Assembly: GCA_963920705.1 (NCBI GenBank)
Contig: OY987227.1
Location: forward strand, 24,719,935-24,783,934
Reading direction: 5' to 3'
Source of the DNA: Odiellus spinosus
Lineage: Eukaryota > Arthropoda > Arachnida > Opiliones > Phalangiidae
DNA: 64,000 nt
This document shows positions 26,754-58,777 of the stretch, in pieces (positions within the stretch are counted from its first letter, which is position 1; the number at the start of each line of letters is the position of its first letter). The translations under genes were made by a program, and so were the position numbers. The notes under the pieces are model-generated. The model had not been told where the DNA came from and did no database searches. It worked only from the letters and a program-made list of their open reading frames with translations.

Positions 26754-30111
<3,358 letters not shown>

Positions 30112-30447: not shown

Positions 30448-31030
30448 ATAGGGCTATCAGAGTGATTTTTGTATGGTTCGGGAACTCGAGGAAATACTCG
30501 TGTAGGAGAGAGGGAGATCTAAAAGTAATTAATAATCGCTTGCTTGATGGAACAGATATTATATCCCTAAAAAATTTCCTTAACTAAATAAATGAACGGG
30601 CGCCTTTTTTTCTCTATTGTTTCGCTTGACTCTTTTTTACTAGCTGATCGACTCCTAGAGACGGTCAAGGAAAAATTTGCCAATCAATTAATGATTGCAT
30701 TTTTTCATCCAGTTTCGATATTATCTAAGCTTCGTTCGTACTATACTTTCCTTAAACATTATGTCATTATACCATTCAGACTTAAATTTGGTGCAACAAT
30801 TTCGATGACTCAAATTATAGGTTATTTTTTATGCATTATTTAGTCCATTTTCTTCCTATTTAGAATGATTAAAATTTGATCCATATCAATGTATTAGCTT
30901 AGCAAATTTCATTCTAATATTTCAATAGGATATTTTCCTCGTGAAAGATGTTTGAATTCGGCAAAAAAGGGAGAGATTTAAAAAAGGGAAGGGGTGTAAC
31001 TTCTGGCCATTTCGCCACATTTACCTAATT
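30448..31030. other. AT-rich non-coding stretch
   Basis: An 83-codon + frame (30592-30843) is present without a known domain and with no coding signature that I can point to. Otherwise nothing is seen. Confidence 0.5.
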
Positions 31031-33370: not shown

Positions 33371-33574
33371 ATTAGATGCTGGCATTCGCCAGCATCTGTT
33401 ATTCCTAGCTCTAGTTTTCCGTAGACGGCTAGCAGCTCCTTTGTTTGGGCTGTATTAACTCCAATGGGGAAATAACATGGGCTGCCAAGATCCGAGATTC
33501 TTATACATTAGGGAAGCTCAAAAATCATGGGATTACCCATGACGCTTTTTTTGATACACGTTAAAGTTCAGTGT
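33371..33574 (+). repeat. 204-bp direct repeat bracketing the large array, left copy
   Basis: Begins ATTAGATGCTGGC and is identical to 57801-58004 except at four positions (two in the hairpin loop, one near 33530, one near 33555). The first bases form a 10-bp perfect stem, AGATGCTGGC/GCCAGCATCT, with a 4-nt loop. Near the right end TCATGGG/CCCATGA forms a second stem of 7 bp. About 320 bp of unrelated sequence separates this copy from the array. It has no coding frame. Confidence 0.95.
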
Positions 33575-33892
33575 GTCTGTAACTAGCGTCGCCGATTACC
33601 CCGGCCTATCTATAATTTAGAAGATCTTTGTTTACCTTTTTTTGAGTGATTTCGTTTAATCTTATGTCGATATGTGTGCTTTTGACCTTTTTTTTCCCCA
33701 ATCAGACTTTAATATAAAGTAAAATAAATTTTAAATCTATGTTATACAGAATGGTCGCTCGCTTTGTACGCGTTGAAATTACGGTTGCCTCTAGCTAGTG
33801 CATAAACGCCCATAGAGTATTTGCACAGCCCGCTTAGACAACCCGCTTAGGCAAAAAAGGCTATAGCTTCAAGCTCTATCATTGCTATGAAC
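33575..33892. other. Unique spacer between left 204-bp repeat and array
   Basis: AT-rich spacer without open frames of note. Near its right end, CCCGCTTAGACAACCCGCTTAGGC shows a short tandem CCCGCTTAG duplication (about 33829-33852). No equivalent spacer exists on the right side of the array. Confidence 0.6.
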
Positions 33893-35423
33893 GTCACCCC
33901 TACCGTGTCACCCCAGTAATATTAATATTATGTATAGCCAAACCTCCGTGTCACCCCTACCGTGTCACCCCAGTATTATTCATATTAGAAATACATTATC
34001 AATAATAATAATAAAATCACAATTTAAGGTGCTAACAAGATGGTCAAGCCCATAAGTATAGCCAAACCTCCGTGTCACCCCAGTATTATTAATATTAGAA
34101 ATACATTATACATAATAATAATAAAATCACAATTTAGGATGATAACAAGATGGTCAAGCCCATAAGTATAGCCAAACCTCCGTGTCACCCCTACCGTGTC
34201 ACCCCTACCTTGTCACCCCTACCGTGTCACCCCTACCTTGTCACCCCTACCTTGTCACCCCTACCTTGTCACCCCTACCGTGTCACCCCAGTAATATTAA
34301 TATTATGTATAGCCAAACCTCCGTGTCACCCCTACCGTGTCACCCCTACCGTGTCACCCCTACCTTGTCACCCCTACCGTGTCACCCCTACCTTGTCACC
34401 CCTACCGTGTCACCCCTGTAATATTAATATTATGTATAGCCAAACCTCCGTGTCACCCCTACCGTGTCACCCCAGTATTATTAATATTAGAAATACATTA
34501 TCAATAATAATAATAAAATCACAATTTAGGATGATAACAAGATGGTTAAGCCCATAAGTATAGCCAAACCTCCGTGTCACCCCTACCTTGTCACCCCTAC
34601 CGTGTCACCCCTACCTTGTCACCCCTACCGTGTCACCCCAGTAATATTAATATTATGTATAGCCAAACCTCCGTGTCACCCCTACCGTGTCACCCCTACC
34701 TTGTCACCCCTACCGTGTCACCCCTACCTTGTCACCCCTACCGTGTCACCCCAGTAATATTAATATTATGTATAGCCAAACCTCCGTGTCACCCCTACCG
34801 TGTCACCCCAGTATTATTAATATTAGAAATACATTATCAATAATAATAATAAAATCACAATTTAGGATGATAACAAGATGGTCAAGCCCATAAGTATAGC
34901 CAAACCTCCGTGTCACCCCTACCGTGTCACCCCTACCTTGTCACCCCTACCGTGTCACCCCTACCTTGTCACCCCTACCGTGTCACCCCAGTAATATTAA
35001 TATTATGTATAGCCAAACCTCCGTGTCACCCCTACCGTGTCACCCCAGTATTATTAATATTAGAAATACATTATCAATAATAATAATAAAATCACAATTT
35101 AGGATGATAACAAGATGGTCAAGCCCATAAGTATAGCCAAACCTCCGTGTCACCCCTACCTTGTCACCCCTACCGTGTCACCCCAGTAATATTAATATTA
35201 TGTATAGCCAAACCTTCGTGTCACCCCTACCGTGTCACCCCTACCTTGTCACCCCAGTATTATTAATATTAGAAATACATTATCAATAATAATAATAAAA
35301 TCACAATTTAGGATGATAACAAGATGGTCAAGCCCATAATATAGCCAAACCTCCGTGTCACCCCTACCTTGTCACCCCTACCGTGTCACCCCAGTAATAT
35401 TAATATTATGTATAGCCAAACCT

Positions 35424-37554
35424 TTAGTCGGCTTGGTACATCAGACTAAAGCATATTCATCGCTAAATAAATTAAATTTTAAAAAAGGGGACTACGCCCG
35501 ACTATATACTCAACTTCGAAATCAAGACTGGAGTAGAGTTCTCCATTGCACTGATGTAAATATTGCTGTAGAATTAATGGAAGACATCTTAGATACCAAT
35601 ATGCGGCTTTGCATACCAATAGGAGGTCAATCAAATCAAAAATACCCTTACTGGTTCTCAAAAGAACTACGAACGATTTTAAGAAGGAAGCAGTATTATC
35701 ATAGGAAATACAAAAGAACCAAAAATTTACCTGATCTTCAACACTTTAAATCACTACGTAAGGAAGCTCAGATCCAGTTAAGAAAGGACCGTAAGTCTCA
35801 TGGTCAAAATGTTGTCAAAGAAATCATAGAAAAACCTGACAAACTATGGCGTTATAGCAGCGAAAGATTGAAACCTGGGGATAGGAATAAAATCATAATA
35901 CAAGACTCTAATGGTAACCATATTACTAATGAAACTTGTATAGCCGAAAGGTTTCGTGACCACCTATCGAACACTACGGTTGAAGTTGAAGATGAAAATT
36001 TTATTCCAAGAATAGAGAAGGATACTCAGTATCCCTTTACCAAACTTCAAATAACGGGAAAGGACGTTTATGAAGCCATAAAAAAGCTTAAGCCTAAAAA
36101 ATCCACAGGACCAGACAATATCCCAGCATTTATTGTCAAAGGTTGCTCTGAAATATTTTTACCACTATTAGTCTACATTTTTAACTTATCCTTATCATCT
36201 GGTGTATTTCCGGAAGTCTGGAAAAAGTCAATAGTTGTTCCTATCTTCAAAAAAGGACATAAGGGAGTTATAACAAATTATCGCCCAATATCCCTTATTT
36301 CGATTTTTTCTAAAATTTTTGAAATTATCCTACACAACCATTTAAATCGTTGGTTTAAACCCATGCTGTGCAATAAACAACATGGCTTCTGTGAAAAACG
36401 ATCGACTAGTACTAACCTAATAAGCTTCCTAAACTATACCGCCCCTCGTATTGAGGACCAAAAACAGGTTGACTGTATCCTTATGGATTTGAGCAAGGCC
36501 TTCGATCGTATGGATCATCGGATACTTCTTCAAAAGTTGGAACTATACGGTCTTGGAGGCACTCTCCTTATGTGGATTAAGAGTTACCTATCTAAAAGAG
36601 AAAATAAAGTGAAAGTTAATAATATACTTACCGAGGTGGTCTTTGAATCCACAAGGGGTGTTCCACAGGGGTCTTCGTTAGGTCCGTTGCTGTTTGTCAT
36701 CTTCCTGAACGACCTGTTTCTCACTGTAAAGCCCGATACAGAAATCGAAGCATTTGCTGATGACAATAAGTTATTTAAAGAAATCAGGAACATTGAAGAT
36801 TGTGTTAAACTTAATGACGAACTAAAAAATATAAACAATTGGGGCATTTCGAACAAATTACCACTTAATGCTATTAAAACTTTTGTGATCAGTTATAGCC
36901 GCAAAACTAACAGGCTTAACTACGAGTATAAGATTTCGAGCGATATTATCGCGAGAAAGAATGAAATAGTTGATCTTGGAGTTTTGTTAGATAGCAAATT
37001 ATATCTTAACAATCATATTGAAAAAACTAGATCTGATTGCCTCAAAAGACTTTACAAAATACTTAAAATCGCTAGAAATTTGAATAGTCCATTGATTTTT
37101 CTTAGATTATACGTGGCGATCGTACGAACTAAACTTGAATATGGATGTTTGATTTGGGGGGATAGCTCAGCCACTAGCATTAATAGCGCCGAACGAATTC
37201 AGCGAAAGTTTATTGAGCTCTACCATACGTACTTCATGAAAAATTCATTGTACGGTTATGAAATTATTTTAAAAAAACTAAAACTAGAATCAATTAGAAC
37301 GCGACTTATGAATAGCGAAATTAAGTTAATACATAATATTATTCATAATCGTATAGACTGTTCAGATTTCCTAAAGTATGTCGATATCAGAATTCCTCAA
37401 AAAAAATACGCGAAACTATGAAGTTTTCTATGTTAAAGGCAAACAACGACTAAATACTCTGAAACGTGCCCAAGTAGTGTGTAACGAGACTAGTAAATCC
37501 CTTGACATTTTTTCTGCTAGGATTAATCGCCAAATTTTAAATTGTAAATTTTAA
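35424..37554 (+). pseudogene. LINE reverse transcriptase, truncated and frameshifted
   Basis: The product would copy LINE RNA into DNA at a nicked target. Seen in order are a basic pre-RT region (about 35640-35870, many K/R); RT motifs KKSTGPDNIP (about 36095-36124), NYRPISLIS (about 36278-36303), LMDLSKAFD (36480-36506, first catalytic Asp) and GVPQGSSLGPLL (36657-36692); and AFADDNKLF (36750-36776), where FADD stands in place of the commoner YADD. A C-terminal region follows. The frame is open from within the array (35355), but the first about 23 codons are satellite sequence, so no native start exists. It stops at 37419-37421. Just before, eight A at 37399-37406 look like a one-base slip, because another frame then continues with a typical LINE C-terminus (LNTLKRAQVVCNETSKSLDI) to a stop at 37552-37554. 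The endonuclease domain is absent. Not functional as it stands. Confidence 0.92.
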
Positions 37555-37765
37555 ACTTTCAAAATTTTAATCTTAAACATTATTATTTTAGGCTGCATAT
37601 TTATTTATTTAGTTATTTATTTATTTATTTATTTATTTATTATTTCTCTACTTACTTTATTGTATTTGTTAAACTTTAATTTATTATTAATGTAAAATAT
37701 GACTTAATTTAAACCTGTACTCCTATAAAAAATGCCACCTGGCACGTTGTTGTACAGGTAATAAA

Positions 37766-37790
37766 ATTGAATTGAATTGAATTGAATTGA
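37766..37790 (+). repeat. (ATTGA)5 tail of the LINE
   Basis: Five perfect ATTGA units follow GTACAGGTAATAAA, marking the 3' end of the element; the array linker resumes at once. Such short tandem tails are typical of LINE clades that do not use poly(A). Confidence 0.85.
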
Positions 37791-38862
37791 ATAAAATCAC
37801 AATTTAGGATGATAACAAGATGGTTAAGCCCATAAGTATAGCCAAACCTCCGTGTCACCCCTACCTTGTCACCCCTACCGTGTCACCCCTACCTTGTCAC
37901 CCCTACCGTGTCACCCCAGTAATATTAATATTATGTATAGCCAAACCTCCGTGTCACCCCTACCGTGTCACCCCAGTATTATTAATATTAGAAATACATT
38001 ATCAATAATAATAATAAAATCACAATTTAGGATGATAACAAGATGGTCAAGCCCATAAGTATAGCCAAACCTCCGTGTCACCCCTACCTTGTCACCCCTA
38101 CCGTGTCACCCCAGTAATATTAATATTATGTATAGCCAAACCTTCGTGTCACCCCTACCGTGTCACCCCTACCTTGTCACCCCAGTATTATTAATATTAG
38201 AAATACATTATCAATAATAATAATAAAATCACAATTTAGGATGATAACAAGATGGTCAAGCCCATAATATAGCCAAACCTCCGTGTCACCCCTACCTTGT
38301 CACCCCTACCGTGTCACCCCAGTAATATTAATATTATGTATAGCCAAACCTCCGTGTCACCCCTACCGTGTCACCCCTACCTTGTCACCCCTACCGTGTC
38401 ACCCCAGTAATATTAATATTATGAATAGCCAAACCTCCGTGTCACCCCTACCGTGTCACCCCAGTATTATTAATATTAGAAATACATTATCAATAATAAT
38501 AATAAAATCACAATTTAGGATGATAACAAGATGGTCAAGCCCATAAGTATAGCCAAACCTCCGTGTCACCCCAACCGTGTCACCCAGTAATATTAATATT
38601 AGAAATACATTATCAATAATAATAATAAAATCACAATTTAAGGTGCTAACAAGATGGTCAAGCCCATAAGTATAGCCAAACCTCCGTGTCACCCCTACCG
38701 TGTCACCCCTACCTTGTCACCCCTACCGTGTCACCCCAGTAATATTAATATTATGTATAGCCAAACCTCCGTGTCACCCCTACCGTGTCACCCCAGTATT
38801 ATTAATATTAGAAATACATTATCAATAATAATAATAAAATCACAATTTAGGATGATAACAAG

Positions 38863-40760
38863 ATGTTCAAGCCCATAAGTATAGCCAAACCTCCGTGTCA
38901 CCCCTACCGTGTCACCCCTACCGTGTCACCCCTACCTTGTCACCCCTACCGTGTCACCCCAGTAATATTAATATTATGTATAGCCAAACCTCCGTGTCAC
39001 CCCTACCGTGTCACCCCAGTATTATTAATATTAGAAATACATTAACAATAATAATAATAAAATCACAATTTAGGATGATAACAAGATGGTCAAGCCCATA
39101 AGTATAGCCAAACCTCCGTGTCACCCCTACCGTGTCACCCCAGTAATATTAATATTAGAAATACATTATCAATAATAATAATAAAATCACAATTTAAGGT
39201 GCTAACAAGATGGTCAAGCCCATAAGTATAGCCAAACCTCCGTGTCACCCCAGTATTATTAATATTAGAAATACATTATACATAATAATAATAAAATCAC
39301 AATTTAGGATGATAACAAGATGGTCAAGCCCATAAGTATAGCCAAACCTCCGTGTCACCCCTACCGTGTCACCCCTACCTTGTCACCCCTACCGTGTCAC
39401 CCCTACCTTGTCACCCCTACCGTGTCACCCCAGTAATATTAATATTATGTATAGCCAAACCTCCGTGTCACCCCTACCGTGTCACCCCTACCGTGTCACC
39501 CCTACCTTGTCACCCCTACCGTGTCACCCCTACCTTGTCACCCCTACCGTGTCACCCCAGTAATATTAATATTATGTATAGCCAAACCTCCGTGTCACCC
39601 CTACCGTGTCACCCCAGTATTATTAATATTAGAAATACATTATTAATAATAATAATAAAATCACAATTTAGGATGATAACAAGATGGTTAAGCCCATAAG
39701 TATAGCCAAACCTCCGTGTCACCCCTACCTTGTCACCCCTACCGTGTCACCCCTACCTTGTCACCCCTACCGTGTCACCCCAGTAATATTAATATTATGT
39801 ATAGCCAAACCTCCGTGTCACCCCTACCGTGTCACCCCTACCGTGTCACCCCTACCTTGTCACCCCTACCGTGTCACCCCTACCTTGTCACCCCTACCGT
39901 GTCACCCCAGTAATATTAATATTATGTATAGCCAAACCTCCGTGTCACCCCTACCGTGTCACCCCAGTATTATTAATATTAGAAATACATTATCAATAAT
40001 AATAATAAAATCACAATTTAGGATGATAACAAGATGGTCAAGCCCATAAGTATAGCCAAACCTCCGTGTCACCCCTACCGTGTCACCCCTACCGTGTCAC
40101 CCCTACCTTGTCACCCCTACCGTGTCACCCCTACCTTGTCACCCCTACCGTGTCACCCCAGTAATATTAATATTATGTATAGCCAAACCTCCGTGTCACC
40201 CCTACCGTGTCACCCTAGTATTATTAATATTAGAAATACATTATCAATAATAATAATAAAATCACAATTTAGGATGATAACAAGATGGTCAAGCCCATAA
40301 GTATAGCCAAACCTCCGTGTCACCCCTACCTTGTCACCCCTACCGTGTCACCCCAGTAATATTAATATTATGTATAGCCAAACCTTCGTGTCACCCCTAC
40401 CTTGTCACCCCAGTATTATTAATATTAGAAATACATTATCAATAATAATAATAAAATCACAATTTAGGATGATAACAAGATGGTCAAGCCCATAATATAG
40501 CCAAACCTTCGTGTCACCCCTACCTTGTCACCCCTACCGTGTCACCCCAGTAATATTAATATTATGTATAGCCAAACCTCCGTGTCACCCCTACCGTGTC
40601 ACCCCTACCGTGTCACCCCTACCGTGTCACCCCTACCTTGTCCCCCCCACCGTGTCACCCCAGTAATATTAATATTATGTATAGCCAAACCTCCGTGTCA
40701 CCCCTACCGTGTCACCCCAGTATTATTAATATTAGAAATACATTATCAATAATAATAATA
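38863..40760 (+). repeat. Segment duplicated 15.3 kb away in the same array, left copy
   Basis: The order of linkers and block lengths here matches about 54189-56062. Both carry the otherwise rare ATTAACAATAAT variant (near 39043 and 54353), then the same succession of long blocks and the CATAATATAGCC linker variant (missing GT). The intervening higher-order repeat is not duplicated with it. Confidence 0.7.
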
Positions 40761-41989
40761 TAATCACAATTTAGGATGATAACAAGATGGTAAAGCCCAT
40801 AAGTATAGCCAAACCTCCGTGTCACCCCTACCGTGTCACCCCTACCTTGTCACCCCTACCGTGTCACCCCTACCTTGTCACCCCTACCGTGTCACCCCAG
40901 TAATATTAATATTATGTATAGCCAAATCTCCGTGTCACCCCTACCGTGTCACCCCAGTATTATTAATATTAGAAATACATTATCAATAATAATAATAAAA
41001 TCACAATTTAGGATGATAACAAGATGGTCAAGCCCATAAGTATAGCCAAACCTCCGTGTCACCCCTACCTTGTCACCCCTACCGTGTCACCCCAGTAATA
41101 TTAATATTATGTATAGCCAAACCTCCGTGTCACCCCTACCGTGTCACCCCTACCTTGTCACCCCTACCGTGTCACCCCAGTAATATTAATATTATGTATA
41201 GCCAAACCTCCGTGTCACCCCTACCGTGTCACCCCAGTAATATTAATATTAGAAATACATTATCAATAATAATAATAAAATCACAATTTAGGATGATAAC
41301 AAGATGGTCAAGCCCATAAGTATAGCCAAACCTCCGTGTCACCCCTACCGTGTCACCCCTACCTTGTCACCCCTACCGTGTCACCCCTACCTTGTCACCC
41401 CTACCGTGTCACCCCAGAAATATTAATATTATGTATAGCCAAACCTCCGTGTCACCCCTACCGTGTCACCCCAGTATTATTAATATTAGAAATACATTAT
41501 CAATAATAATAATAAAATCACAATTTAGGATGATAACAAGATGGTCAAGCCCATAAGTTTAGCCAAGCCTCCGTGTCACCCCTACCGTGTCACCCCAGTA
41601 TTATTAATATTAGAAATACATTATCAATAATAATAATATAATCACAATTTAGGATGATAACAAGATGGTCAAGCCCATAAGTATAGCCAAACCTCCGTGT
41701 CACCCCTACCGTGTCACCCCTACCGTGTCACCCCTACCGTGTCACCCCTACCTTGTCACCCCTACCGTGTCACCCCTACCTTGTCACCCCTACCGTGTCA
41801 CCCCAGTAATATTAATATTATGTATAGCCAAATCTCCGTGTCACCCCTACCGTGTCACCCCTACCGTGTCACCCCTACCGTGTCACCCCAGTATTATTAA
41901 TATTAGAAATACATTATCAATAATAATAATAAAATCACAATTTAGGATGATAACAAGATGGTCAAGCCCATAAGTATAGCCAAACCTCC

Positions 41990-44900
41990 GTGTCACCCCT
42001 ACCTTGTCACCCCTACCGTGTCACCCCAGTAATATTAATATTATGTATAGCCAAACCTCCGTGTCACCCCTACCGTGTCACCCCTACCTTGTCACCCCTA
42101 CCGTGTCACCCCAGTAATATTAATATTATGTATAGCCAAACCTCCGTGTCACCCCTACCGTGTCACCCCAGTAATATTAATATTAGAAATACATTATCAA
42201 TAATAATAATAAAATCACAATTTAGGATGATAACAAGATGGTCAAGCCCATAAGTATAGCCAAACCTCCGTGTCACCCCTACCGTGTCACCCCTGTAATA
42301 TTAATATTAGAAATACATTATCAATAATAATAATAAAATCACAATTTAAGGTGCTAACAAGATGGTCAAGCCCATAAGTATAGCCAAACCTCCGTGTCAC
42401 CCCAGTATTATTAATATTAGAAATACATTATACATAATAATAATAAAATCACAATTTAGGATGATAACAAGATGGTCAAGCCCATAAGTATAGCCAAACC
42501 TCCGTGTCACCCCTACCGTGTCACCCCTACCTTGTCACCCCTACCGTGTCACCCCTACCTTGTCACCCCTACCGTGTCACCCCAGTAATATTAATATTAT
42601 GTATAGCCAAACCTCCGTGTCACCCCTACCGTGTCACCCCAGTATTATTAATATTAGAAATACATTATCAATAATAATAATAAAATCACAATTTAGGATG
42701 ATAACAAGATGGTCAAGCCCATAAGTGTAGCCAAACCTCCGTGTCACCCCTACCGTGTCACCCCTACCTTGTCACCCCTACCGTGTCACCCCTACCTTGT
42801 CACCCCTACCGTGTCACCCCAGTAATATTAATATTATGTATAGCCAAACCTCCGTGTCACCCCTACCGTGTCACCCCAGTATTATTAATATTAGAAATAC
42901 ATTATCAATAATAATAATAAAATCACAATTTAGGATGATAACAAGATGGTCAAGCCCATAAGTTTAGCCAAACCTCCGTGTCACCCCTACCGTGTCACCC
43001 CAGTATTATTAATATTAGAAATACATTATCAATAATAATAATATAATCACAATTTAGGATGATAACAAGATGGTCAAGCCCATAAGTATAGCCAAGCCTC
43101 CGTGTCACCCCTACCGTGTCACCCCTACCTTGTCACCCCTACCGTGTCACCCCTACCTTGTCACCCCTACCGTGTCACCCCAGTAATATTAATATTATGT
43201 ATAGCCAAATCTCCGTGTCACCCCTACCGTGTCACCCCAGTATTATTAATATTAGAAATACATTATCAATAATAATAATATAATCACAATTTAGGATGAT
43301 AACAAGATGGTAAAGCCCATAAGTGTAGCCAAACCTCCGTGTCACCCCTACCGTGTCACCCCTACCTTGTCACCCCTACCGTGTCACCCCAGTAATATTA
43401 ATATTATGTATAGCCAAACCTCCGTGTCACCCCTACCGTGTCACCCCAGTATTATTAATATTAGAAATACATTATCAATAATAATAATAAAATCACAATT
43501 TAGGATGATAACAAGATGGTCAAGCCCATAAGTTTAGCCAAACCTCCGTGTCACCCCTACCGTGTCACCCCAGTATTATTAATATTAGAAATACATTATC
43601 AATAATAATAATAAAATCACAATTTAGGATGATAACAAGATGGTCAAGCCCATAAGTATAGCCAAACCTCCGTGTCACCCCTACCTTGTCACCCCTACCG
43701 TGTCACCCCAGTAATATTAATATTATGTATAGCCAAACCTCCGTGTCACCCCTACCGTGTCACCCCTACCTTGTCACCCCTACCGTGTCACCCCAGTAAT
43801 ATTAATATTATGTATAGCCAAACCTCCGTGTCACCCCTACCGTGTCACCCCAGTAATATTAATATTAGAAATACATTATCAATAATAATAATAAAATCAC
43901 AATTAAAGGTGCTAACAAGATGGTCAAGCCCATAAGTATAGCCAAACCTCCGTGTCACCCCAGTATTATTAATATTAGAAATACATTATACATAATAATA
44001 ATAAAATCACAATTTAGGATGATAACAAGATGGTCAAGCCCATAAGTATAGCCAAACCTCCGTGTCACCCCAGTATTATTAATATTAGAAATACATTATA
44101 CATAATAATAATAAAATCACAATTTAGGATGATAACAAGATGGTCAAGCCCATAAGTGTAGCCAAACCTCCGTGTCACCCCTACCGTGTCACCCCTACCT
44201 TGTCACCCCTACCGTGTCACCCCTACCTTGTCACCCCTACCGTGTCACCCCAGTAATATTAATATTATGTATAGCCAAAGCTCCGTGTCACCCCTACCGT
44301 GTCACCCCAGTATTATTAATATTAGAAATACATTATCAATAATAATAATAAAATCACAATTTAGGATGATAACAAGATGGTCAAGCCCATAAGTATAGCC
44401 AAACCTCCGTGTCACCCCTACCGTGTCACCCCTACCGTGTCACCCCTACCTTGTCACCCCTACCGTGTCACCCCTACCTTGTCACCCCTACCGTGTCACC
44501 CCAGTAATATTAATATTATGTATAGCCAAACCTCCGTGTCACCCCTACCGTGTCACCCCAGTATTATTAATATTAGAAATACATTATCAATAATAATAAT
44601 ATAATCACAATTTAGGATGATAACAAGATGGTAAAGCCCATAAGTATAGCCAAACCTCCGTGTCACCCCTACCGTGCCACCCCTACCTTGTCACCCCTAC
44701 CGTGTCACCCCTACCTTGTCACCCCTACCGTGTCACCCCAGTAATATTAATATTATGTATAGCCAAATCTCCGTGTCACCCCTACCGTGTCACCCCAGTA
44801 TTATTAATATTAGAAATACATTATCAATAATAATAATAAAATCACAATTTAGGATGATAACAAGATGGTCAAGCCCATAAGTATAGCCAAACCTCCGTGT

Positions 44901-47900
44901 CACCCCTACCTTGTCACCCCTACCGTGTCACCCCAGTAATATTAATATTATGTATAGCCAAACCTCCGTGTCACCCCTACCGTGTCACCCCTACCTTGTC
45001 ACCCCTACCGTGTCACCCCAGTAATATTAATATTATGTATAGCCAAACCTCCGTGTCACCCCTACCGTGTCACCCCAGTAATATTAATATTAGAAATACA
45101 TTATCAATAATAATAATAAAATCACAATTTAGGATGATAACAAGATGGTCAAGCCCATAAGTATAGCCAAACCTCCGTGTCACCCCTACCGTGTCACCCC
45201 TGTAATATTAATATTAGAAATACATTATCAATAATAATAATAAAATCACAATTTAAGGTGCTAACAAGATGGTCAAGCCCATAAGTATAGCCAAACCTCC
45301 GTGTCACCCCAGTATTATTAATATTAGAAATACATTATACATAATAATAATAAAATCACAATTTAGGATGATAACAAGATGGTCAAGCCCATAAGTATAG
45401 CCAAACCTCCGTGTCACCCCTACCGTGTCACCCCTACCTTGTCACCCCTACCGTGTCACCCCTACCTTGTCACCCCTACCGTGTCACCCCTACCTTGTCA
45501 CCCCTACCGTGTCACCCCTACCGTGTCACCCCAGTAATATTAATATTATGTATAGCCAAATCTCCGTGTCACCCCTACCGTGTCACCCCAGTATTATTAA
45601 TATTAGAAATACATTATCAATAATAATAATATAATCACAATTTAGGATGATAACAAGATGGTCAAGCCCATAAGTATAGCCAAGCCTCCGTGTCACCCCT
45701 ACCGTGTCACCCCTACCTTGTCACCCCTACCGTGTCACCCCTACCTTGTCACCCCTACCGTGTCACCCCAGTAATATTAATATTATGTATAGCCAAATCT
45801 CCGTGTCACCCCTACCGTGTCACCCCAGTATTATTAATATTAGAAATACATTATCAATAATAATAATATAATCACAATTTAGGATGATAACAAGATGGTA
45901 AAGCCCATAAGTGTAGCCAAACCTCCGTGTCACCCCTACCGTGTCACCCCTACCTTGTCACCCCTACCGTGTCACCCCTACCTTGTCACCCCTACCGTGT
46001 CACCCCAGTAATATTAATATTATGTATAGCCAAACCTCCGTGTCACCCCTACCGTGTCACCCCAGTATTATTAATATTAGAAATACATTATCAATAATAA
46101 TAATAAAATCACAATTTAGGATGATAACAAGATGGTCAAGCCCATAAGTTTAGCCAAACCTCCGTGTCACCCCTACCGTGTCACCCCATTATTATTAATA
46201 TTAGAAATACATTATCAATAATAATAATAAAATCACAATTTAGGATGATAACAAGATGGTCAAGCCCATAAGTATAGCCAAACCTCCGTGTCACCCCTAC
46301 CTTGTCACCCCTACCGTGTCACCCCAGTAATATTAATATTATGTATAGCCAAACCTCCGTGTCACCCCTACCGTGTCACCATTACCTTGTCACCCCTACC
46401 GTGTCACCCCAGTAATATTAATATTATGTATAGCCAAACCTCCGTGTCACCCCTACCGTGTCACCCCAGTAATATTAATATTAGAAATACATTATCAATA
46501 ATAATAATAAAATCACAATTAAAGGTGCTAACAAGATGGTCAAGCCCATAAGTATAGCCAAACCTCCGTGTCACCCCAGTATTATTAATATTAGAAATAC
46601 ATTATACATAATAATAATAAAATCACAATTTAGGATGATAACAAGATGGTCAAGCCCATAAGTATAGCCAAACCTCCGTGTCACCCCAGTATTATTAATA
46701 TTAGAAATACATTATACATAATAATAATAAAATCACAATTTAGGATGATAACAAGATGGTCAAGCCCATAAGTGTAGCCAAACCTCCGTGTCACCCCTAC
46801 CGTGTCACCCCTACCTTGTCACCCCTACCGTGTCACCCCTACCTTGTCACCCCTACCGTGTCACCCCAGTAATATTAATATTATGTATAGCCAAACCTCC
46901 GTGTCACCCCTACCGTGTCACCCCAGTATTATTAATATTAGAAATACATTATCAATAATAATAATAAAATCACAATTTAGGATGATAACAAGATGGTCAA
47001 GCCCATAAGTATAGCCAAACCTCCGTGTCACCCCTACCGTGTCACCCCTACCGTGTCACCCCTACCTTGTCACCCCTACCGTGTCACCCCTACCTTGTCA
47101 CCCCTACCGTGTCACCCCAGTAATATTAATATTATGTATAGCCAAACCTCCGTGTCACCCCTACCGTGTCACCCCAGTAATATTAATATTAGAAATACAT
47201 TATCAATAATAATAATATAATCACAATTTAGGATGATAACAAGATGGTAAAGCCCATAAGTATAGCCAAACCTCCGTGTCACCCCTACCGTGTCACCCCT
47301 ACCTTGTCACCCCTACCGTGTCACCCCTACCTTGTCACCCCTACCGTGTCACCCCAGTAATATTAATATTATGTATAGCCAAATCTCCGTGTCACCCCTA
47401 CCGTGTCACCCCAGTATTATTAATATTAGAAATACATTATCAATAATAATAATAAAATCACAATTTAGGATGATAACAAGATGGTCAAGCCCATAAGTAT
47501 AGCCAAACCTCCGTGTCACCCCTACCTTGTCACCCCTACCGTGTCACCCCAGTAATATTAATATTATGTATAGCCAAACCTCCGTGTCACCCCTACCGTG
47601 TCACCCCTACCTTGTCACCCCTACCGTGTCACCCCAGTAATATTAATATTATGTATAGCCAAACCTCCGTGTCACCCCTACCGTGTCACCCCAGTAATAT
47701 TAATATTAGAAATACATTATCAATAATAATAATAAAATCACAATTTAGGATGATAACAAGATGGTCAAGCCCATAAGTATAGCCAAACCTCCGTGTCACC
47801 CCTACCGTGTCACCCCTGTAATATTAATATTAGAAATACATTATCAATAATAATAATAAAATCACAATTTAAGGTGCTAACAAGATGGTCAAGCCCATAA

Positions 47901-50900
47901 GTATAGCCAAACCTCCGTGTCACCCCAGTATTATTAATATTAGAAATACATTATACATAATAATAATAAAATCACAATTTAGGATGATAACAAGATGGTC
48001 AAGCCCATAAGTATAGCCAAACCTCCGTGTCACCCCTACCGTGTCACCCCTACCTTGTCACCCCTACCGTGTCACCCCTACCTTGTCACCCCTACCGTGT
48101 CACCCCTACCTTGTCACCCCTACCGTGTCACCCCAGTAATATTAATATTATGTATAGCCAAACCTCCGTGTCACCCCTACCGTGTCACCCCAGTATTATT
48201 AATATTAGAAATACATTATCAATAATAATAATAATATCACAATTTAGGATGATAACAAGATGGTCAAGCCCATAAGTGTAGCCAAACCTCCGTGTCACCC
48301 CTACCGTGTCACCCCTACCTTGTCACCCCTACCGTGTCACCCCTACCTTGTCACCCCTACCGTGTCACCCCAGTAATATTAATATTATGTATAGCCAAAC
48401 CTCCGTGTCACCCCTACCGTGTCACCCCAGTATTATTAATATTAGAAATACATTATCAATAATAATAATAAAATCACAATTTAGGATGATAACAAGATGG
48501 TCAAGCCCATAAGTTTAGCCAAACCTCCGTGTCACCCCTACCGTGTCACCCCAGTATTATTAATATTAGAAATACATTATCAATAATAATAATATAATCA
48601 CAATTTAGGATGATAACAAGATGGTCAAGCCCATAAGTATAGCCAAGCCTCCGTGTCACCCCTACCGTGTCACCCCTACCTTGTCACCCCTACCGTGTCA
48701 CCCCTACCTTGTCACCCCTACCGTGTCACCCCAGTAATATTAATATTATGTATAGCCAAATCTCCGTGTCACCCCTACCGTGTCACCCCAGTATTATTAA
48801 TATTAGAAATACATTATCAATAATAATAATATAATCACAATTTAGGATGATAACAAGATGGTAAAGCCCATAAGTGTAGCCAAACCTCCGTGTCACCCCT
48901 ACCGTGTCACCCCTACCTTGTCACCCCTACCGTGTCACCCCTACCTTGTCACCCCTACCGTGTCACCCCAGTAATATTAATATTATGTATAGCCAAACCT
49001 CCGTGTCACCCCTACCGTGTCACCCCAGTATTATTAATATTAGAAATACATTATCAATAATAATAATAAAATCACAATTTAGGATGATAACAAGATGGTC
49101 AAGCCCATAAGTTTAGCCAAACCTCCGTGTCACCCCTACCGTGTCACCCCAGTATTATTAATATTAGAAATACATTATCAATAATAATAATAAAATCACA
49201 ATTTAGGATGATAACAAGATGGTCAAGCCCATAAGTATAGCCAAACCTCCGTGTCACCCCTACCTTGTCACCCCTACCGTGTCACCCCAGTAATATTAAT
49301 ATTATGTATAGCCAAACCTCCGTGTCACCCCTACCTTGTCACCCCTACCGTGTCACCCCAGTAATATTAATATTATGTATAGCCAAACCTCCGTGTCACC
49401 CCTACCGTGTCACCCCAGTAATATTAATATTAGAAATACATTATCAATAATAATAATAAAATCACAATTAAAGGTGCTAACAAGATGGTCAAGCCCATAA
49501 GTATAGCCAAACCTCCGTGTCACCCCAGTATTATTAATATTAGAAATACATTATACATAATAATAATAAAATCACAATTTAGGATGATAACAAGATGGTC
49601 AAGCCCATAAGTATAGCCAAACCTCCGTGTCACCCCAGTATTATTAATATTAGAAATACATTATACATAATAATAATAAAATCACAATTTAGGATGATAA
49701 CAAGATGGTCAAGCCCATAAGTGTAGCCAAACCTCCGTGTCACCCCTACCGTGTCACCCCTACCTTGTCACCCCTACCGTGTCACCCCTACCTTGTCACC
49801 CCTACCGTGTCACCCCAGTAATATTAATATTATGTATAGCCAAACCTCCGTGTCACCCCTACCGTGTCACCCCAGTATTATTAATATTAGAAATACATTA
49901 TCAATAATAATAATAAAATCACAATTTAGGATGATAACAAGATGGTCAAGCCCATAAGTATAGCCAAACCTCCGTGTCACCCCTACCGTGTCACCCCTAC
50001 CGTGTCACCCCTACCTTGTCACCCCTACCGTGTCACCCCTACCTTGTCACCCCTACCGTGTCACCCCAGTAATATTAATATTATGTATAGCCAAACCTCC
50101 GTGTCACCCCTACCGTGTCACCCCAGTATTATTAATATTAGAAATACATTATCAATAATAATAATATAATCACAATTTAGGATGATAACAAGATGGTAAA
50201 GCCCATAAGTATAGCCAAACCTCCGTGTCACCCCTACCGTGTCACCCCTACCTTGTCACCCCTACCGTGTCACCCCTACCTTGTCACCCCTACCGTGTCA
50301 CCCCAGTAATATTAATATTATGTATAGCCAAATCTCCGTGTCACCCCTACCGTGTCACCCCAGTATTATTAATATTAGAAATACATTATCAATAATAATA
50401 ATAAAATCACAATTTAGGATGATAACAAGATGGTCAAGCCCATAAGTATAGCCAAACCTCCGTGTCACCCCTACCTTGTCACCCCTACCGTGTCACCCCA
50501 GTAATATTAATATTATGTATAGCCAAACCTCCGTGTCACCCCTACCGTGTCACCCCTACCTTGTCACCCCTACCGTGTCACCCCAGTAATATTAATATTA
50601 TGTATAGCCAAACCTCCGTGTCACCCCTACCGTGTCACCCCAGTAATATTAATATTAGAAATACATTATCAATAATAATAATAAAATCACAATTTAGGAT
50701 GATAACAAGATGGTCAAGCCCATAAGTATAGCCAAACCTCCGTGTCACCCCTACCGTGTCACCCCTGTAATATTAATATTAGAAATACATTATCAATAAT
50801 AATAATAAAATCACAATTTAAGGTGCTAACAAGATGGTCAAGCCCATAAGTATAGCCAAACCTCCGTGTCACCCCAGTATTATTAATATTAGAAATACAT

Positions 50901-52200
50901 TATACATAATAATAATAAAATCACAATTTAGGATGATAACAAGATGGTCAAGCCCATAAGTATAGCCAAACCTCCGTGTCACCCCTACCGTGTCACCCCT
51001 ACCTTGTCACCCCTACCGTGTCACCCCTACCTTGTCACCCCTACCGTGTCACCCCTACCTTGTCACCCCTACCGTGTCACCCCAGTAATATTAATATTAT
51101 GTATAGCCAAACCTCCGTGTCACCCCTACCGTGTCACCCCAGTATTATTAATATTAGAAATACATTATCAATAATAATAATAAAATCACAATTTAGGATG
51201 ATAACAAGATGGTCAAGCCCATAAGTTTAGCCAAACCTCCGTGTCACCCCTACCGTGTCACCCCAGTAATATTAATATTATGTATAGCCAAACCTCCGTG
51301 TCACCCCTACCGTGTCACCCCAGTAATATTAATATTAGAAATACATTATACATAATAATAATAAAATCACAATTTAGGATGATAACAAGATGGTCAAGCC
51401 CATAAGTATAGCCAAACCTCCGTGTCACCCCTACCGTGTCACCCCTACCTTGTCACCCCTACCGTGTCACCCCTACCTTGTCACCCCTACCGTGTCACCC
51501 CTACCTTGTCACCCCTACCGTGTCACCCCAGTAATATTAATATTATGTATAGCCAAACCTCCGTGTCACCCCTACCGTGTCACCCCAGTATTATTAATAT
51601 TAGAAATACATTATCAATAATAATAATAAAATCACAATTTAGGATGATAACAAGATGGTCAAGCCCATAAGTTTAGCCAAACCTCCGTGTCACCCCTACC
51701 GTGTCACCCCAGTATTATTAATATTAGAAATACATTATCAATAATAATAATATAATCACAATTTAGGATGATAACAAGATGGTCAAGCCCATAAGTATAG
51801 CCAAACCTCCGTGTCACCCCTACCGTGTCACCCCTACCTTGTCACCCCACCGTGTCACCCCTACCTTGTCACCCCTACCGTGTCACCCCAGTAATATTAA
51901 TATTATGTATAGCCAAATCTCCGTGTCACCCCTACCGTGTCACCCCAGTATTATTAATATTAGAAATACATTATCAATAATAATAATATAATCACAATTT
52001 AGGATGATAACAAGATGGTAAAGCCCATAAGTATAGCCAAACCTCCGTGTCACCCCTACCGTGTCACCCCTACCTTGTCACCCCTACCGTGTCACCCCTA
52101 CCTTGTCACCCCTACCGTGTCACCCCAGTAATATTAATATTATGTATAGCCAAATCTCCGTGTCACCCCTACCGTGTCACCCCAGTATTATTAATATTAG
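41990..52200 (+). repeat. Higher-order repeat of 2.6-2.95 kb within the composite satellite
   Basis: The order of block lengths and linker variants starting at 41990 recurs from about 44897, 47513 and 50462, giving spacings of about 2907, 2616 and 2949 bp. Markers that travel with the period are CTAACAAGATGG in place of ATAACAAGATGG, ATTATACATAAT in place of ATTATCAATAAT, AATATAATCAC in place of AATAAAATCAC, and TTTAGCC or GTGTAGCC in place of GTATAGCC. The 2616-bp copy lacks one roughly 330-bp block present in the longer ones. A partial earlier copy is seen near 41056. Confidence 0.8.
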
Positions 52201-54188
52201 AAATACATTATCAATAATAATAATAAAATCACAATTTAGGATGATAACAAGATGGTCAAGCCCATAAGAATAGCCAAACCTCCGTGTCACCCCTACCTTG
52301 TCACCCCTACCGTGTCACCCCAGTAATATTAATATTATGTATAGCCAAACCTCCGTGTCACCCCTACCGTGTCACCCCTAATTTGTCACCCCTACCGTGT
52401 CACCCCAGTAATATTAATATTATGTATAGCCAAACCTCCGTGTCACCCCTACCGTGTCACCCCTACCGTGTCACCCCAGTAATATTAATATTAGAAATAC
52501 ATTATCAATAATAATAATAAAATCACAATTTAGGATGATAACAAGATGGTCAAGCCCATAAGTTTAGCCAAACCTCCGTGTCACCCCTACCGTGTCACCC
52601 CAGTATTATTAATATTAGAAATACATTATCAATAATAATAATAAAATCACAATTTAGGATGATAACAAGATGGTCAAGCCCATAAGTATAGCCAAACCTC
52701 CGTGTCACCCCTACCTTGTCACCCCTACCGTGTCACCCCAGTAATATTAATATTATAATATTAATATTATTAATGTATAGCCAAACCTCCGTGTCACCCC
52801 TACCGTGTCACCCCAGTATTATTAATATTAGAAATACATTATCAATAATAATAATAAAATCACAATTTAGGATGATAACAAGATGGTCAAGCCCATAAGT
52901 GTAGCCAAACCTCCGTGTCACCCCTACCGTGTCACCCCTACCTTGTCACCCCTACCGTGTCACCCCAGTAATATTAATATTATGTATAGCCAAACCTCCG
53001 TGTCACCCCTACCGTGTCACCCCAGTATTATTAATATTAGAAATACATTATCAATAATAATAATAAAATCACAATTTAGGATGATAACAAGATGGTCAAG
53101 CCCATAAGTTTAGCCAAACCTCCGTGTCACCCCTACCGTGTCACCCCAGTATTATTAATATTAGAAATACATTATCAATAATAATAATAAAATCACAATT
53201 TACGATGATAACAAGATGGTCAAGCCCATAAGTATAGCAAAACCTCCGTGTCACCCTACCGTGTCACCCCTACCTTGTCACCCCTACCGTGTCACCCCTA
53301 CCTTGTCACCCCTACCGTGTCACCCCAGTAATATTAATATTATGTATAGCCAAATCTCCGTGTCACCCCTACCGTGTCACCCCAGTATTATTAATATTAG
53401 AAATACATTATCAATAATAATAATAAAATCACAATTTAGGATGATAACAAGATGGTCAAGCCCATAAGTATAGCCAAACCTCCGTGTCACCCCTACCGTG
53501 TCACCCCAGTAATATTAATATTATGTATAGCCAAACCTCCGTGTCACCCCTACCGTGTCACCCCTACCTTGTCACCCCTACCGTGTCACCACAGTAATAT
53601 TAATATTATGTATAGCCAAACCTCCGTGTCACCCCTACCGTGTCACCCCAGTAATATTAATATTAGAAATACATTATCAATAATAATAATAAAATCACAA
53701 TTTAGGATGATAACAAGATGGTTAAGCCCATAAGTATAGCCAAACCTCCGTGTCACCCCTACCGTGTCACCCCAGTAATATTAATATTAGAAATACATTA
53801 TCAATAATAATAATAAAATCACAATTAAAGGTGCTAACAAGATGGTCAAGCCCATAAGTATAGCCAAACCTCCGTGTCACCCCATTATTATTAATATTAG
53901 AAATACATTATACATAATAATAATAAAATCACAATTTAGGATGATAACAAGATGGGCAAGCCCATAAGTATAGCCAAACCTCCGTGTCACCCCTACCGTG
54001 TCACCCCTACCTTGTCACCCCTACCGTGTCACCCCTACCTTGTCACCCCTACCGTGTCACCCCAGTAATATTAATATTATGTATAGCCAAACCTCCTTGT
54101 CACCCCTACCGTGTCACCCCAGTATTATTAATATTAGAAATACATTATCAATAATAATAATAAAATCACAATTTAGGATGATGACAAG

Positions 54189-56062
54189 ATGGTCAAGCCC
54201 ATAAGTATAGCCAAACCTCCGTGTCACCCCTACCGTGTCACCCCTACCTTGTCACCCCTACCGTGTCACCCCAGTAATATTAATATTATGTATAGCCAAA
54301 CCTCCGTGTCACCCCTACCGTGTCACCCCAGTATTATTAATATTAGAAATACATTAACAATAATAATAATAAAATCACAATTTAGGATGATAACAAGATG
54401 GTCAAGCCCATAAGTATAGCCAAACCTCCGTGTCACCCCTACCGTGTCACCCCAGTAATATTAATATTAGAAATACATTATCAATAATAATAATAAAATC
54501 ACAATTTAAGGTGCTAACAAGATGGTCAAGCCCATAAGTATAGCCAAACCTCCGTGTCACCCCAGTATTATTAATATTAGAAATACATTATACATAATAA
54601 TAATAAAATCACAATTTAGGATGATAACAAGATGGTCAAGCCCATAAGTATAGCCAAACCTCCGTGTCACCCCTACCGTGTCACCCCTACCTTGTCACCC
54701 CTACCGTGTCACCCATACCTTGTCACCCCTACCGTGTCACCCCTACCTTGTCACCCCTACCGTGTCACCCCAGTAATATTAATATTATGTATAGCCAAAC
54801 CTCCGTGTCACCCCTACCGTGTCACCCCTACCTTGTCACCCCTACCGTGTCACCCCTACCTTGTCACCCCTACCGTGTCACCCCAGTAATATTAATATTA
54901 TGTATAGCCAAACCTCCGTGTCACCCCAGTATTATTAATATTAGAAATACATTATCAATAATAATAATAAAATCACAATTTAGGATGATAACAAGATGGT
55001 TAAGCCCATAAGTATAGCCAAACCTCCGTGTCACCCCTACCTTGTCACCCCTACCGTGTCACCCCTACCTTGTCACCCCCACCGTGTCACCCCAGTAATA
55101 TTAATATTATGTATAGCCAAACCTCCGTGTCACCCCTACCGTGTCACCCCTACCGTGTCACCCCTACCTTGTCACCCCTACCGTGTCACCCCTACCTTGT
55201 CACCCCTACCGTGTCACCCCAGTAATATTAATATTATGTATAGCCAAACCTCCGTGTCACCCCTACCGTGTCACCCCAGTATTATTAATATTAGAAATAC
55301 ATTATCAATAATAATAATAAAATCACAATTTAGGATGATAACAAGATGGTCAAGCCCATAAGTATAGCCAAACCTCCGTGTCACCCCTACCGTGTCACCC
55401 CTACCGTGTCACCCCTACCTTGTCACCCCTACCGTGTCACCCCTACCTTGTCACCCCTACCGTGTCACCCCAGTAATATAATTATATTATGTATAGCCAA
55501 ACCTCCGTGTCACCCCAGTATTATTAATATTAGAAATACATTATCAATAATAATAATAAAATCACAATTTAGGATGATAACAAGATGGTCAAGCCCATAA
55601 GTATAGCCAAACCTCCGTGTCACCCCTACCTTGTCACCCCTACCGTGTCACCCCAGTAATATTAATATTATGTATAGCCAAACCTTCGTGTCACCCCTAC
55701 CGTGTCACCCCTACCTTGTCACCCCAGTATTATTAATATTAGAAATACATTATCAATAATAATAATAAAATCACAATTTAGGATGATAACAAGATGGTCA
55801 AGCCCATAATATAGCCAAACCTCCGTGTCACCCCTACCTTGTCACCCCTACCGTGTCACCCTTGTAATATTAAAATATTATGTATAGCCAAACCTCCGTG
55901 TCACCCCTACCGTGTCACCCCTACCGTGTCACCCCTACCTTGTCACCCCTACCGTGTCACCCCAGTAATATTAATATTATGTATAGCCAAACCTCCGTGT
56001 CACCCCTACCGTGTCACCCCAGTATTATTAATATTAGAAATACATTATCAATAATAATAATA
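54189..56062 (+). repeat. Segment duplicated 15.3 kb away in the same array, right copy
   Basis: Counterpart of 38863-40760. It differs by private changes, such as ATATAATTATATTAT in a linker near 55478 and TTGTAATATTAAAATATT near 55862, and by one extra 28-bp pair of sub-repeats near 54700. Confidence 0.7.
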
Positions 56063-57800
56063 AAATCACAATTTAGGATGATAACAAGATGGTCAAGCCC
56101 ATAAGTATAGCCAAACCTCCGTGTCACCCCTACCGTGTCACCCCTACCGTGTCACCCCTACCTTGTCACCCCTACCGTGTCACCCCAGTAATATTAATAT
56201 TATGTATAGCCAAACCTCCGTGTCACCCCTACCGTGTCACCCCAGTATTATTAATATTAGAAATACATTATCAATAATCAATAATAATAATAAAATCACA
56301 ATTTAGGATGATAACAAGATGGTCAAGCCCATAAGTATAGCCAAACCTCCGTGTCACCCCTACCGTGTCACCCCTACCGTGTCACCCCTACCTTGTCACC
56401 CCTACCGTGTCACCCCAGTAATATTAATATTATGTATAGCCAAACCTCCGTGTCACCCCTACCGTGTCACCCCAGTATTATTAATATTAGAAATACATTA
56501 TCAATAATAATAATAAAATCACAATTTAGGATGATAACAAGATGGTCAAGCCCATAAGTATAGCCAAACCTCCGTGTCACCCCTACCTTGTCACCCCTAC
56601 CGTGTCACCCCAGTAATATTAATATTATGTATAGCCAAACCTTCGTGTCACCCCTACCGTGTCACCCCTACCTTGTCACCCCAGTATTATTAATATTAGA
56701 AATACATTATCAATAATAATAATAAAATCACAATTTAGGATGATAACAAGATGGTCAAGCCCATAATATAGCCAAACCTCCGTGTCACCCCTACCTTGTC
56801 ACCCCTACCGTGTCACCCCAGTAATATTAATATTATGTATAGCCAAACCTCCGTGTCACCCCTACCGTGTCACCCCTACCGTGTCACCCCTACCTTGTCA
56901 CCCCTACCGTGTCACCCCAGTAATATTAATATTATGTATAGCCAAACCTCCGTGTCACCCCTACCGTGTCACCCCTACCTTGTCACCCCTACCGTGTCAC
57001 CCCAGTAATATTAATATTATGTATAGCCAAACCTCCGTGTCACCCCTACCGTGTCACCCCTACCTTGTCACCCCAGTAATATTAATATTATGTATAGCCA
57101 AACCTCCGTGTCACCCCTACCTTGTCACCCCTACCGTGTCACCCCAGTAATATTAATATTAGGTATAGCCAAGCCTCCGTGTCACCCCTACAGTGTCACC
57201 CCTACCTTGTCACCCCTACCGTGTCACCCCAGTAATATTAATATTAGGTATAGCCAAACCTCCGTGTCACCCCTACCTTGTCACCCCTACCTTGTCACCC
57301 CAGTAATATTAATATTATGTATAGCCAAACCTCCGTGTCACCCCTACCGTGTCACCCCAGTAATATTAATATTAGGTATAGCCAAACCTCCGTGTCACCC
57401 CTACCGTGTCACCCCTACCTTGTCACCCCAGTAATATTAATATTATGTATAGCCAAACCTCCGTGTCACCCCTACCGTGTCACCCCTACCTTGTCACCCC
57501 TACCGTGTCACCCCAGTAATATCACAATTTAAGGTGCTAACAAGATGGTCAAGCCCATAAGTATAGCCAAACCTCCGTGTCACCCCTACCGTGTCACCCC
57601 TACCGTGTCACCCCTACCTTGTCACCCCTACCGTGTCACCCCTACTTTGTCACCCCTACCGTGTCACCCCAGTATTATTAATATTAGAAATACTGTATCA
57701 ATAATAATAATAAAATCACAATTTAAGGTGCTAACAAGATGGGCAAGCCCATAAGTATAGCCAAACCTCCGTGTCACCCCTACCGTGTCACCCCAGTAAT

Positions 57801-58004
57801 ATTAGATGCTGGCGGTCGCCAGCATCTGTTATTCCTAGCTCTAGTTTTCCGTAGACGGCTAGCAGCTCCTTTGTTTGGGCTGTATTAACTCCAATGGGGA
57901 AATAACATGGGCTGCCAAGATCCGAGATTCTTATACATTAGGGAAGCTCAAAAATCATAGGATTACCCATGACGCTTTTTTTGATGCACGTTAAAGTTCA
58001 GTGT
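57801..58004 (+). repeat. 204-bp direct repeat bracketing the large array, right copy
   Basis: Counterpart of 33371-33574 with four differences. It joins the array directly: the linker sequence CAGTAATATTAG merges into ATTAGATGCTGG, so ATTAG is shared between array and repeat. The terminal 10-bp hairpin stem is intact with loop GGTC instead of ATTC, so the stem is kept while the loop changed. The 7-bp stem near its right end is broken by one change (TCATAGG). Confidence 0.95.
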
Positions 58005-58257
58005 ATTTCTTCTGGCAACCACCCAGAATAGGCTACGCCTCTGACGCTGCCCACGGGGTTAGGTTAGGTTAAGTTTCTCGGAGAGGAAATTGTTTGGTTT
58101 CCCAGCTTACAATGATACTTTCACACTTGTCACTTTGCACGAAAACGTTTTAAAATTTTTTTTTTTCAACATTAAAATAAATTTTCTAATGCAACTATTT
58201 TGTTTATTGACAAACTAACTCACCAGTTCACCCAGACTACTTTTTACAAAGGGACAA
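58005..58257. other. Non-coding stretch
   Basis: Unique DNA with GGTTAGGTTAGGTTAAG at 58057-58073 (two TTAGG units, too few to call telomeric). No gene is seen. Confidence 0.5.
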
Positions 58258-58777
58258 ATATTAGTTAAAAACCTAGTTGCCTGTTGCCAGGCCACTAGAA
58301 GGAACAGGTTATTCCTAACGTAAGTACTACTTTCACAGTTGTAATTACAACTTTGAATGGGCAGATATGATTATCATTCCGAGAACACCCATCACAACTT
58401 TCAATGGACATATATTATCATTTTAAGTGGGAGTGCCATTGATCCAAACCTTTCACGAATAACTCTGCGAAAATTTGTGTTATAGAATGTAACAAGCACC
58501 ACTATTTCCAAAACTAAGCGATTGGGAAGTCTTGGGTACAGCATAATAGACCAAGTAGAAATTTTCGCAGAGTTATTCGTGAAAGGTTTGGATCAATGGC
58601 ACTCCCACTTAAAATGATAATACATGACCATTGAATGTTGTGATGGGTGTTCTCGGAATGATTATCATATCTGCCCATTCAAAGTTGTAATTACAACTGT
58701 GAAAGTAGTACTTACGTTAGGAATAACCTGTTCCTTCTAGTGGCCTGGCAACAGGCAACTAGGTTTTTAACTAATAT
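58258..58777. mobile_element. Fold-back element, 219-bp arms
   Basis: The left arm 58258-58476 and right arm 58559-58777 are inverted copies with four mismatches in 219 bp. They are separated by an 82-bp spacer with no similarity between its halves. The outer ends read ATATTAGTTAAAAACC; inner ends read CTCTGCGAAAATTT. There is no reading frame of note and no clear target-site duplication (perhaps TA). The near identity of the arms indicates a recent origin or arm-to-arm conversion. If transcribed it would form a 219-bp double-stranded RNA. Confidence 0.93.

Follow-up and report, generated by a model that had tools for sequence, protein, structure and literature searches.

A probable chimeric Helitron-type transposon with a satellite array as cargo in the genome of Odiellus spinosus

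The window analyzed here comprises 64,000 nucleotides of the genome of Odiellus spinosus (Opiliones, Phalangiidae; assembly GCA_963920705.1, contig OY987227.1, positions 24,719,935 to 24,783,934, forward strand), in which an initial annotation had described a 24-kb satellite bracketed by two near-identical 204-bp direct repeats. A blastn comparison within the window, whose positions are used for all module coordinates, recovered both 204-bp modules on the same strand (33371-33574 and 57801-58004), with no gaps and the four differences that had been counted before (offsets 13, 14, 158 and 185; E = 1.5e-99). The block from 33372 to 58774 on the + strand is interpreted here, with a probability of roughly 0.8, as a single non-autonomous chimeric rolling-circle transposon of Helitron type that mobilises a satellite. 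As read from the sequence, the chimera is composed, in order, of a 5' end and linker, a long satellite array, another 5' end belonging to this family and, last, the 3' tail of the family. Its parts are as follows (window positions, strand, description):

33372-58774, +, whole putative chimeric Helitron-type element, TTAG to CTAA, about 25.4 kb, with sharp 5' and 3' limits against differing host DNA at many loci
33371, +, A preceding TTAG, present in all 27 fetched outer copies
33371-33574, +, outer 204-bp module, the 5' terminal region by sequence comparison
33374-33397, +, 5' hairpin with a 10-bp stem and loop ATTC (fold -11.9 kcal/mol, z -6.0)
33575-33893, +, linker, by alignment also present in members without array in the stretch read
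33894-57800, +, satellite array of 14-bp CC(G/T)TGTCACCCCTA units and AT-rich spacers, short and long
35424-37792, +, reverse-transcriptase fragment inside the array, about 2.4 kb, limits approximate (RVT_1, E 2.7e-27)
57801-58004, +, inner 204-bp module, by sequence comparison an internal repeat of the 5' end that carries the inner signature
57804-57827, +, inner 5' hairpin, stem as in the outer copy, loop GGTC (fold -11.1 kcal/mol)
58005-58774, +, 3' tail of the element, about 770 bp, conserved to a common end in 8 of 8 aligned right flanks
58261-58774, no strand, long palindrome in the tail, self-complementary at 89%
58737-58762, +, 3' subterminal hairpin ending 12 nt before the terminus (-9.0 kcal/mol; 1 of 200 shuffles as good)
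58771-58774, +, 3' terminus CTAA, from 3' ends compared across loci, with T next at 58775

Each 204-bp copy opens with ATTAG, followed by the 10-bp stem, and none of 200 shuffles folded as well as the 5' hairpin of either copy. The stem, annotated as intact beneath differing loops (ATTC and GGTC), was indeed so in both window copies, but not throughout the family. The linker had the length previously given for the distance between the left copy and the array (about 320 bp), and 316 of its bases align at 95-100% in the left ends of composites and at 100% in an array-free member (L017). On the right side, the reported fusion through ATTAG was recovered as the join AAT|ATTAG, at which the array bases AATATTA overlap the module start ATTAG. 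The array, within which local blocks recur at 2,616 and 2,949 bp, was present as described; it is, however, broken by the reverse-transcriptase insert rather than continuous, and the unit runs on to 58774. The insert carries a GAATT-repeat tail and showed, by eye, no clear target-site duplication. Because the right flanks of eight loci stay alike for about 770 bp beyond the right module, as far as 58774, this module is regarded as internal and not terminal.

Comparison among copies supports the boundaries of the element, two joins common to composites, its dispersal and the existence of a Rep/helicase-coding relative. The genome searched comprised 443 Mb in 286 contigs (labelled C1, C2 and so on; fetched stretches are labelled from L001), with 10-kb stretches read at 20 places and shorter ones elsewhere. 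The best 40 of 148 candidates for the 204-bp module were scored and all 40 matched, while no match was found in a phage collection. The exact 5' hairpin pattern occurred at 37 places, many of them as same-strand pairs, and its reversed control at none. Patterns spanning the array/inner-module join and the inner-module/tail join were each found at 16 places, all of them exact even though one mismatch was allowed, with no hit for either reversed control. The two patterns agreed at 15 places; a copy on C7 had an altered array join, yet the array adjoins its module, and the copy at C2:2633349 lacked the module/tail join. The occurrence of the same joins on many contigs speaks against the earlier suggestion of a duplication made by recombination at this locus.

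Outer and inner modules were found together on one strand at 13 loci (C1, C2, C3 twice, one of these being the window, C4, C5, C7, C11, C12, C13, C14, C15 and C16), with spacings of 12.3-44.0 kb that include any insertions. Three array/inner-module joins had no outer partner among the matches (C2:2633349, C6:19664448 and C12:21537875). The initial annotation had considered that the module might be a common dispersed repeat with no association to arrays. When this was examined, all 16 inner-module/tail joins found by pattern were array-linked, and 15 of the 27 outer copies fetched led into array, 12 not doing so within the stretch read (about 3 kb for most). In the flanks, the array motif GTGTCACCCC was absent from both strands of 118,283 bp (18 stretches).

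At the outer copies, the host sequence before A/TTAG differed from locus to locus, duplicated loci apart, whereas the inner copies were followed not by host DNA but by the conserved tail of about 770 bp, and then by CTAA, T and differing host sequence (8 of 8 aligned flanks). With nine further 3' ends read, including those of L017 and L038, whose read stretches contain no array, a T followed the 3' end in 17 of 17 cases, and the end was CTAA in 16 and ATAA in one. Taken with the A that precedes TTAG in all 27 outer copies fetched, these ends left no target-site duplication visible. With the L021 pair taken as one, 14 distinct left flanks and 15 distinct right flanks were recorded for the composites among the loci read. 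Thus, of the previous proposal of a giant mobile unit with terminal direct repeats, the mobile unit was upheld (13 paired loci, flanks differing where read) and the terminal repeats were not, the 3' end lying 770 bp past the right module. The copy at C12:12.55M is flanked by a repeat with relatives in L013, L014 and L044, although L014 is misaligned by about 150 bp at the insertion point and gave no clean empty site.

Single copies departed from this pattern. The loop was replaced by its exact reverse complement, with the stem intact, in one outer copy (L048, C4:16602150-16603350; GAAT instead of the usual ATTC) and in one inner copy (L043, C7:12061500-12063250; GACC instead of GGTC), a pattern suggestive of inversion of the loop via a cruciform or hairpin intermediate. 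In L050 (C2:2633000-2634700) the array gives way to a fragment of the inner 5' hairpin, which is joined directly to AACTAA and T, the tail being gone save for its last six bases; this composite end may be a new terminus or the result of a deletion. In L021 (C2:10294000-10303999), two outer 5' ends separated by 4,064 bp have the same left host flank, through a local duplication or an assembly effect.

The inner modules carried differences of their own. The signature 158A + 185G was present in 16 of 16 inner copies and in none of the 27 outer copies fetched. The loop difference pointed out in the initial annotation was less clean, the GG loop being found in 13 of 14 readable inner copies, but also in three outer copies (L034, L036 and L037). 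That all inner copies have the signature in common argues that a single fused ancestor probably gave rise to the dispersed composites. All 10 left ends examined place the linker/array join identically, with nearby point changes in L009 and L025, but in a rough unit code their array units follow different orders. Since the joins are constant and the array order is not, array length and order must change fast, plausibly by unequal exchange or during rolling-circle replication. The outer 5' regions of composites had a median divergence of 0.96% (13 regions, two of them from L021) and the inner-plus-tail regions one of 1.02% (13 of 16, three being too short or broken), values of about 1% that point to a recent spread. 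Dating the window modules by their four differences, as if they were long terminal repeats (LTRs), was rejected, since two of the four belong to the inherited signature.

Regarding class, the HUH Rep and SF1/PIF1 helicase of the Helitron superfamily were found in a family member on C12, and a 3' hairpin at the distance expected of the superfamily, some 10-12 nt upstream of a CTRR terminus, was found in the window (58737-58762, with CTAA at 58771-58774). Hairpins at both termini, as in Helentron and Helitron2 elements, were present in the window copy. As to inverted ends, only TTAG/CTAA (4-5 bp) was seen, no systematic search for subterminal inverted repeats having been made. The insertion context departs from both the TT of Helentrons and the TTTT^T/C of Helitron2, the base before the end being A. 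This A (33371) may be the host base of an A^T target or part of the element, and in the latter case the preceding base is A or T, varying by copy. No apurinic/apyrimidinic (AP)-type endonuclease was found in the open reading frames (ORFs) scanned (L024:6524-9742; L029:2-742, 658-2460 and 2411-5029). A Helitron on the minus strand was considered because the reversed 5' hairpin precedes CTAAT; it was discarded, given that the Rep relative reads in the + direction and that the 3' hairpin at the right end lies at the usual distance.

Relatives of other structure were also read. L017 (C14) is array-free, was read from end to end, measures about 3.5 kb and shares the 5' end, the linker and the 3' tail; by eye, its middle stretch resembles the THAP-domain ORF of L010. 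The C12 copy, read in two overlapping stretches (L024 and L029), is about 12.9 kb long when measured from its 5' module to where the tail match stops. Its ORFs in L029 matched PF14214 Helitron_like_N (1.4e-29), PF23343 REP_ORF2-G2P (1.2e-8) and PF05970 PIF1 (9.5e-21), the helicase ORF matched the Helraiser chain 7lcc_A at 3e-23, and the copy also codes for DUF6570 (9.6e-18). In the window copy, the domain scan covered the long reverse-transcriptase ORF, and the Rep and helicase domains come from the C12 relative. A ubiquitin hydrolase (UCH) domain was likewise detected in this relative (5e-21, L029:2411-5029); OTU and VTD deubiquitinases have been reported for Helitrons (PMC9741609).

In a longer form (L010 on C12 and L030 on C6), the 5' end and linker are followed by further sequence, with a THAP domain in L010 (3e-6), then by tail positions 1-252 and by a degenerate array edge, so that array replaces the tail palindrome, which starts at about position 257. 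From the window form, all sequence between the linker end and this degenerate edge is missing. Such an order is as expected for a member that lost its terminator and read into satellite sequence, in which case a later deletion would have shortened the 5' part. A single stretch like the long spacer of the array (AACAAGATGGTCAAGCCCATA) was observed in the left host flanks of L034, L036 and L037, possibly a relic of the satellite's source.

The origin proposed for the composite begins with a family member that would have lost its own 3' terminator beside, or into, satellite sequence. A short deleted member, made up of the 204-bp 5' end and the 770-bp tail, would have come to lie in the array. Rolling-circle transposition starting at the outer 5' end could then have bypassed the absent terminator and stopped at the downstream 3' hairpin, turning everything in between into cargo, after which the composite would have spread. 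Terminator bypass has been shown with Helraiser (PMC4778049), and for Fusarium Helitrons (PMC5148889) a chimeric structure combining two 5' ends with a single 3' end has been suggested; the anatomy of the window fits both models. It is a tentative and rather unlikely further idea that satellite arrays tens of kilobases long are both transported and altered in length by rolling-circle transposition itself, the composite being copied as a very long single strand or circle with units gained or lost at each round. If so, long satellites could be seeded at new chromosomal sites in one step.

Several observations weigh against interpreting the block as a chimeric Helitron-type element with this origin. 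The 5' end is TTAG and not the TC of canonical Helitron1 elements; the 5' hairpin stem is changed in L019, L025, L033 and L035, and the 3' end in L012 (ATAA). The 16 module/tail joins, all array-attached, included no short member standing on its own, and the insertion of a second element into the array is therefore a step that we infer. None of the 15 composite right flanks read continued into array, as a donor locus would. Only the array interval of the window was read throughout, the other intervals being taken from module spacing. In the C12 copy, the Rep ORF had no match in PDB, the ORFs lie in overlapping frames, and the tail, read short of its 3' terminus, has 84% identity with the window tail over positions 75-772, reaching 94% only on the other strand of the palindrome. 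This copy may thus not be the mover of the composite family, and because of its overlapping frames and 84% tail it is called here a Rep-coding relative and not a proven partner.

An account that differs from the chimeric origin in a single inferred step, the insertion of a second element with bypass, is that the second 5' end arose in the same element by faulty rolling-circle replication, which either ran a second lap or switched template at a short stretch of ATTA homology. We consider it possible, with odds clearly below even. The lack of a free short member would be expected under it, as would the bases that the array (AATATTA) and the module start (ATTAG) have in common at the join. Arrays with multiple 5' ends and a single 3' Helitron end are reported in plants, with such a mechanism proposed (PMC12628747), and L026 (C11:13520800-13530799) contains two inner modules in succession, the first followed by tail 1-303 and then by array again. 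The fixed differences of the inner module nevertheless suggest a separate lineage, and the deletion joining module to tail would require an extra step.

Independent growth of arrays at each site, in separate copies of a dispersed element, has a very small probability. It would account for intervals and unit orders that vary between loci and for the existence of a complete array-free member (L017), the part of the initial suggestion of an array grown inside one dispersed copy that stands; both joins, however, are identical at the composite loci examined and the inner signature is fixed, and spread seems to have taken place in the fused form, as one unit. An assembly artefact or segmental duplication is less likely still. 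Some duplication, whether local, segmental or haplotypic, exists, chiefly among array-free copies, and host flanks are common to the L021 5' ends and within L023/L024, L031/L032, L034/L036/L037, L039/L040 and L041/L042, but the composites lie in the many different left and right flanks counted above. Least credible is an element bounded by genuine terminal direct repeats, LTR-like or otherwise, as two near-identical copies on one strand might suggest: the right copy is internal, the 3' end differs in sequence and lies 770 bp further on, identical repeats do not occupy both termini and no target-site duplication is visible.

Known systems are compared on the basis of the accessible parts of the cited reports. 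In its cargo, the family resembles Cg_HINE, non-autonomous Helentrons of Crassostrea gigas whose arrays average 3.62 monomers, the longest having 29.3 (PMC7492417); one oyster element-associated array of 89 monomers (PMC8268682) corresponds, by scaling in this analysis, to about 15 kb. Like the present family, these rolling-circle elements are non-autonomous and dispersed and have conserved ends that enclose satellite-like arrays in the centre; no target-site duplication has been reported for them, and none is visible here. The oyster arrays are as a rule shorter, intervals here reaching 44 kb, although the longest of them attains the size of the smallest interval here, 12.3 kb; the context is TT there and A/T here, and an internal second 5' end is found here. 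The composite FoHelis of Fusarium oxysporum (PMC5148889) also have several 5' termini and one 3' terminus, with a duplicated 5' part of <200 bp and an origin proposed by self-insertion with start at the leftmost 5' end; they differ in size (about 5-11 kb), terminal sequences and target, and no satellite array is described in the part of that report available (PMC5148889).

The proto-Helentron-Pi of Phytophthora infestans (PMC4067079) resembles the present family in its 5' TT, 3' CTAR-type end, insertion between A and T (putative here), absence of a target-site duplication (none visible here) and length of about 14 kb, a likeness by features and not by tree; its end is CTAG as opposed to CTAA here, and a UCH domain occurs in the relative here. 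With Helraiser and bat Helitrons (PMC4778049) the family has in common Rep-helicase, a 3' hairpin near the end and read-through of downstream DNA, whereas Helraiser starts with TC and ends with CTAG, and giant satellite cargo is not described in the accessible part of that source (PMC4778049). Helitrons of up to 39 kb have been reported in maize (PMC6431247).

Satellite-bearing Helentrons and Helitrons with two 5' ends are thus each known. In the open-licence literature searched, no report was found of satellite cargo combined with a second 5' end at this size, and cargo of up to tens of kilobases with an internal 5' end and an A/T context is, within that literature, a new combination. These results suggest that whole satellite arrays can spread as transposon cargo in this genome. 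The vehicle, its ends, the fusion joins and a Rep-coding relative are all readable here, which bears on the old question of how satellites reach many chromosomes: the same satellite on many chromosomes need not imply exchange between them. With ends diverged by about 1%, movement of a satellite as transposon cargo, and change of its length while moving, become testable.

Two further repeats were observed elsewhere in the window. A second satellite, with a 19-bp unit (CGTTTTGGGTCCGACTTTT), extends from the left edge of the window (1-8703). A palindromic repeat of about 340 bp with ends CAGAAGCCGATGAAACCC, resembling a miniature inverted-repeat transposable element (MITE), was present in five copies, in both orientations:

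15833-16188, 21421-21763, 23311-23657, 26412-26754 and 30105-30450, both orientations, MITE-like repeat copies in the window sequence

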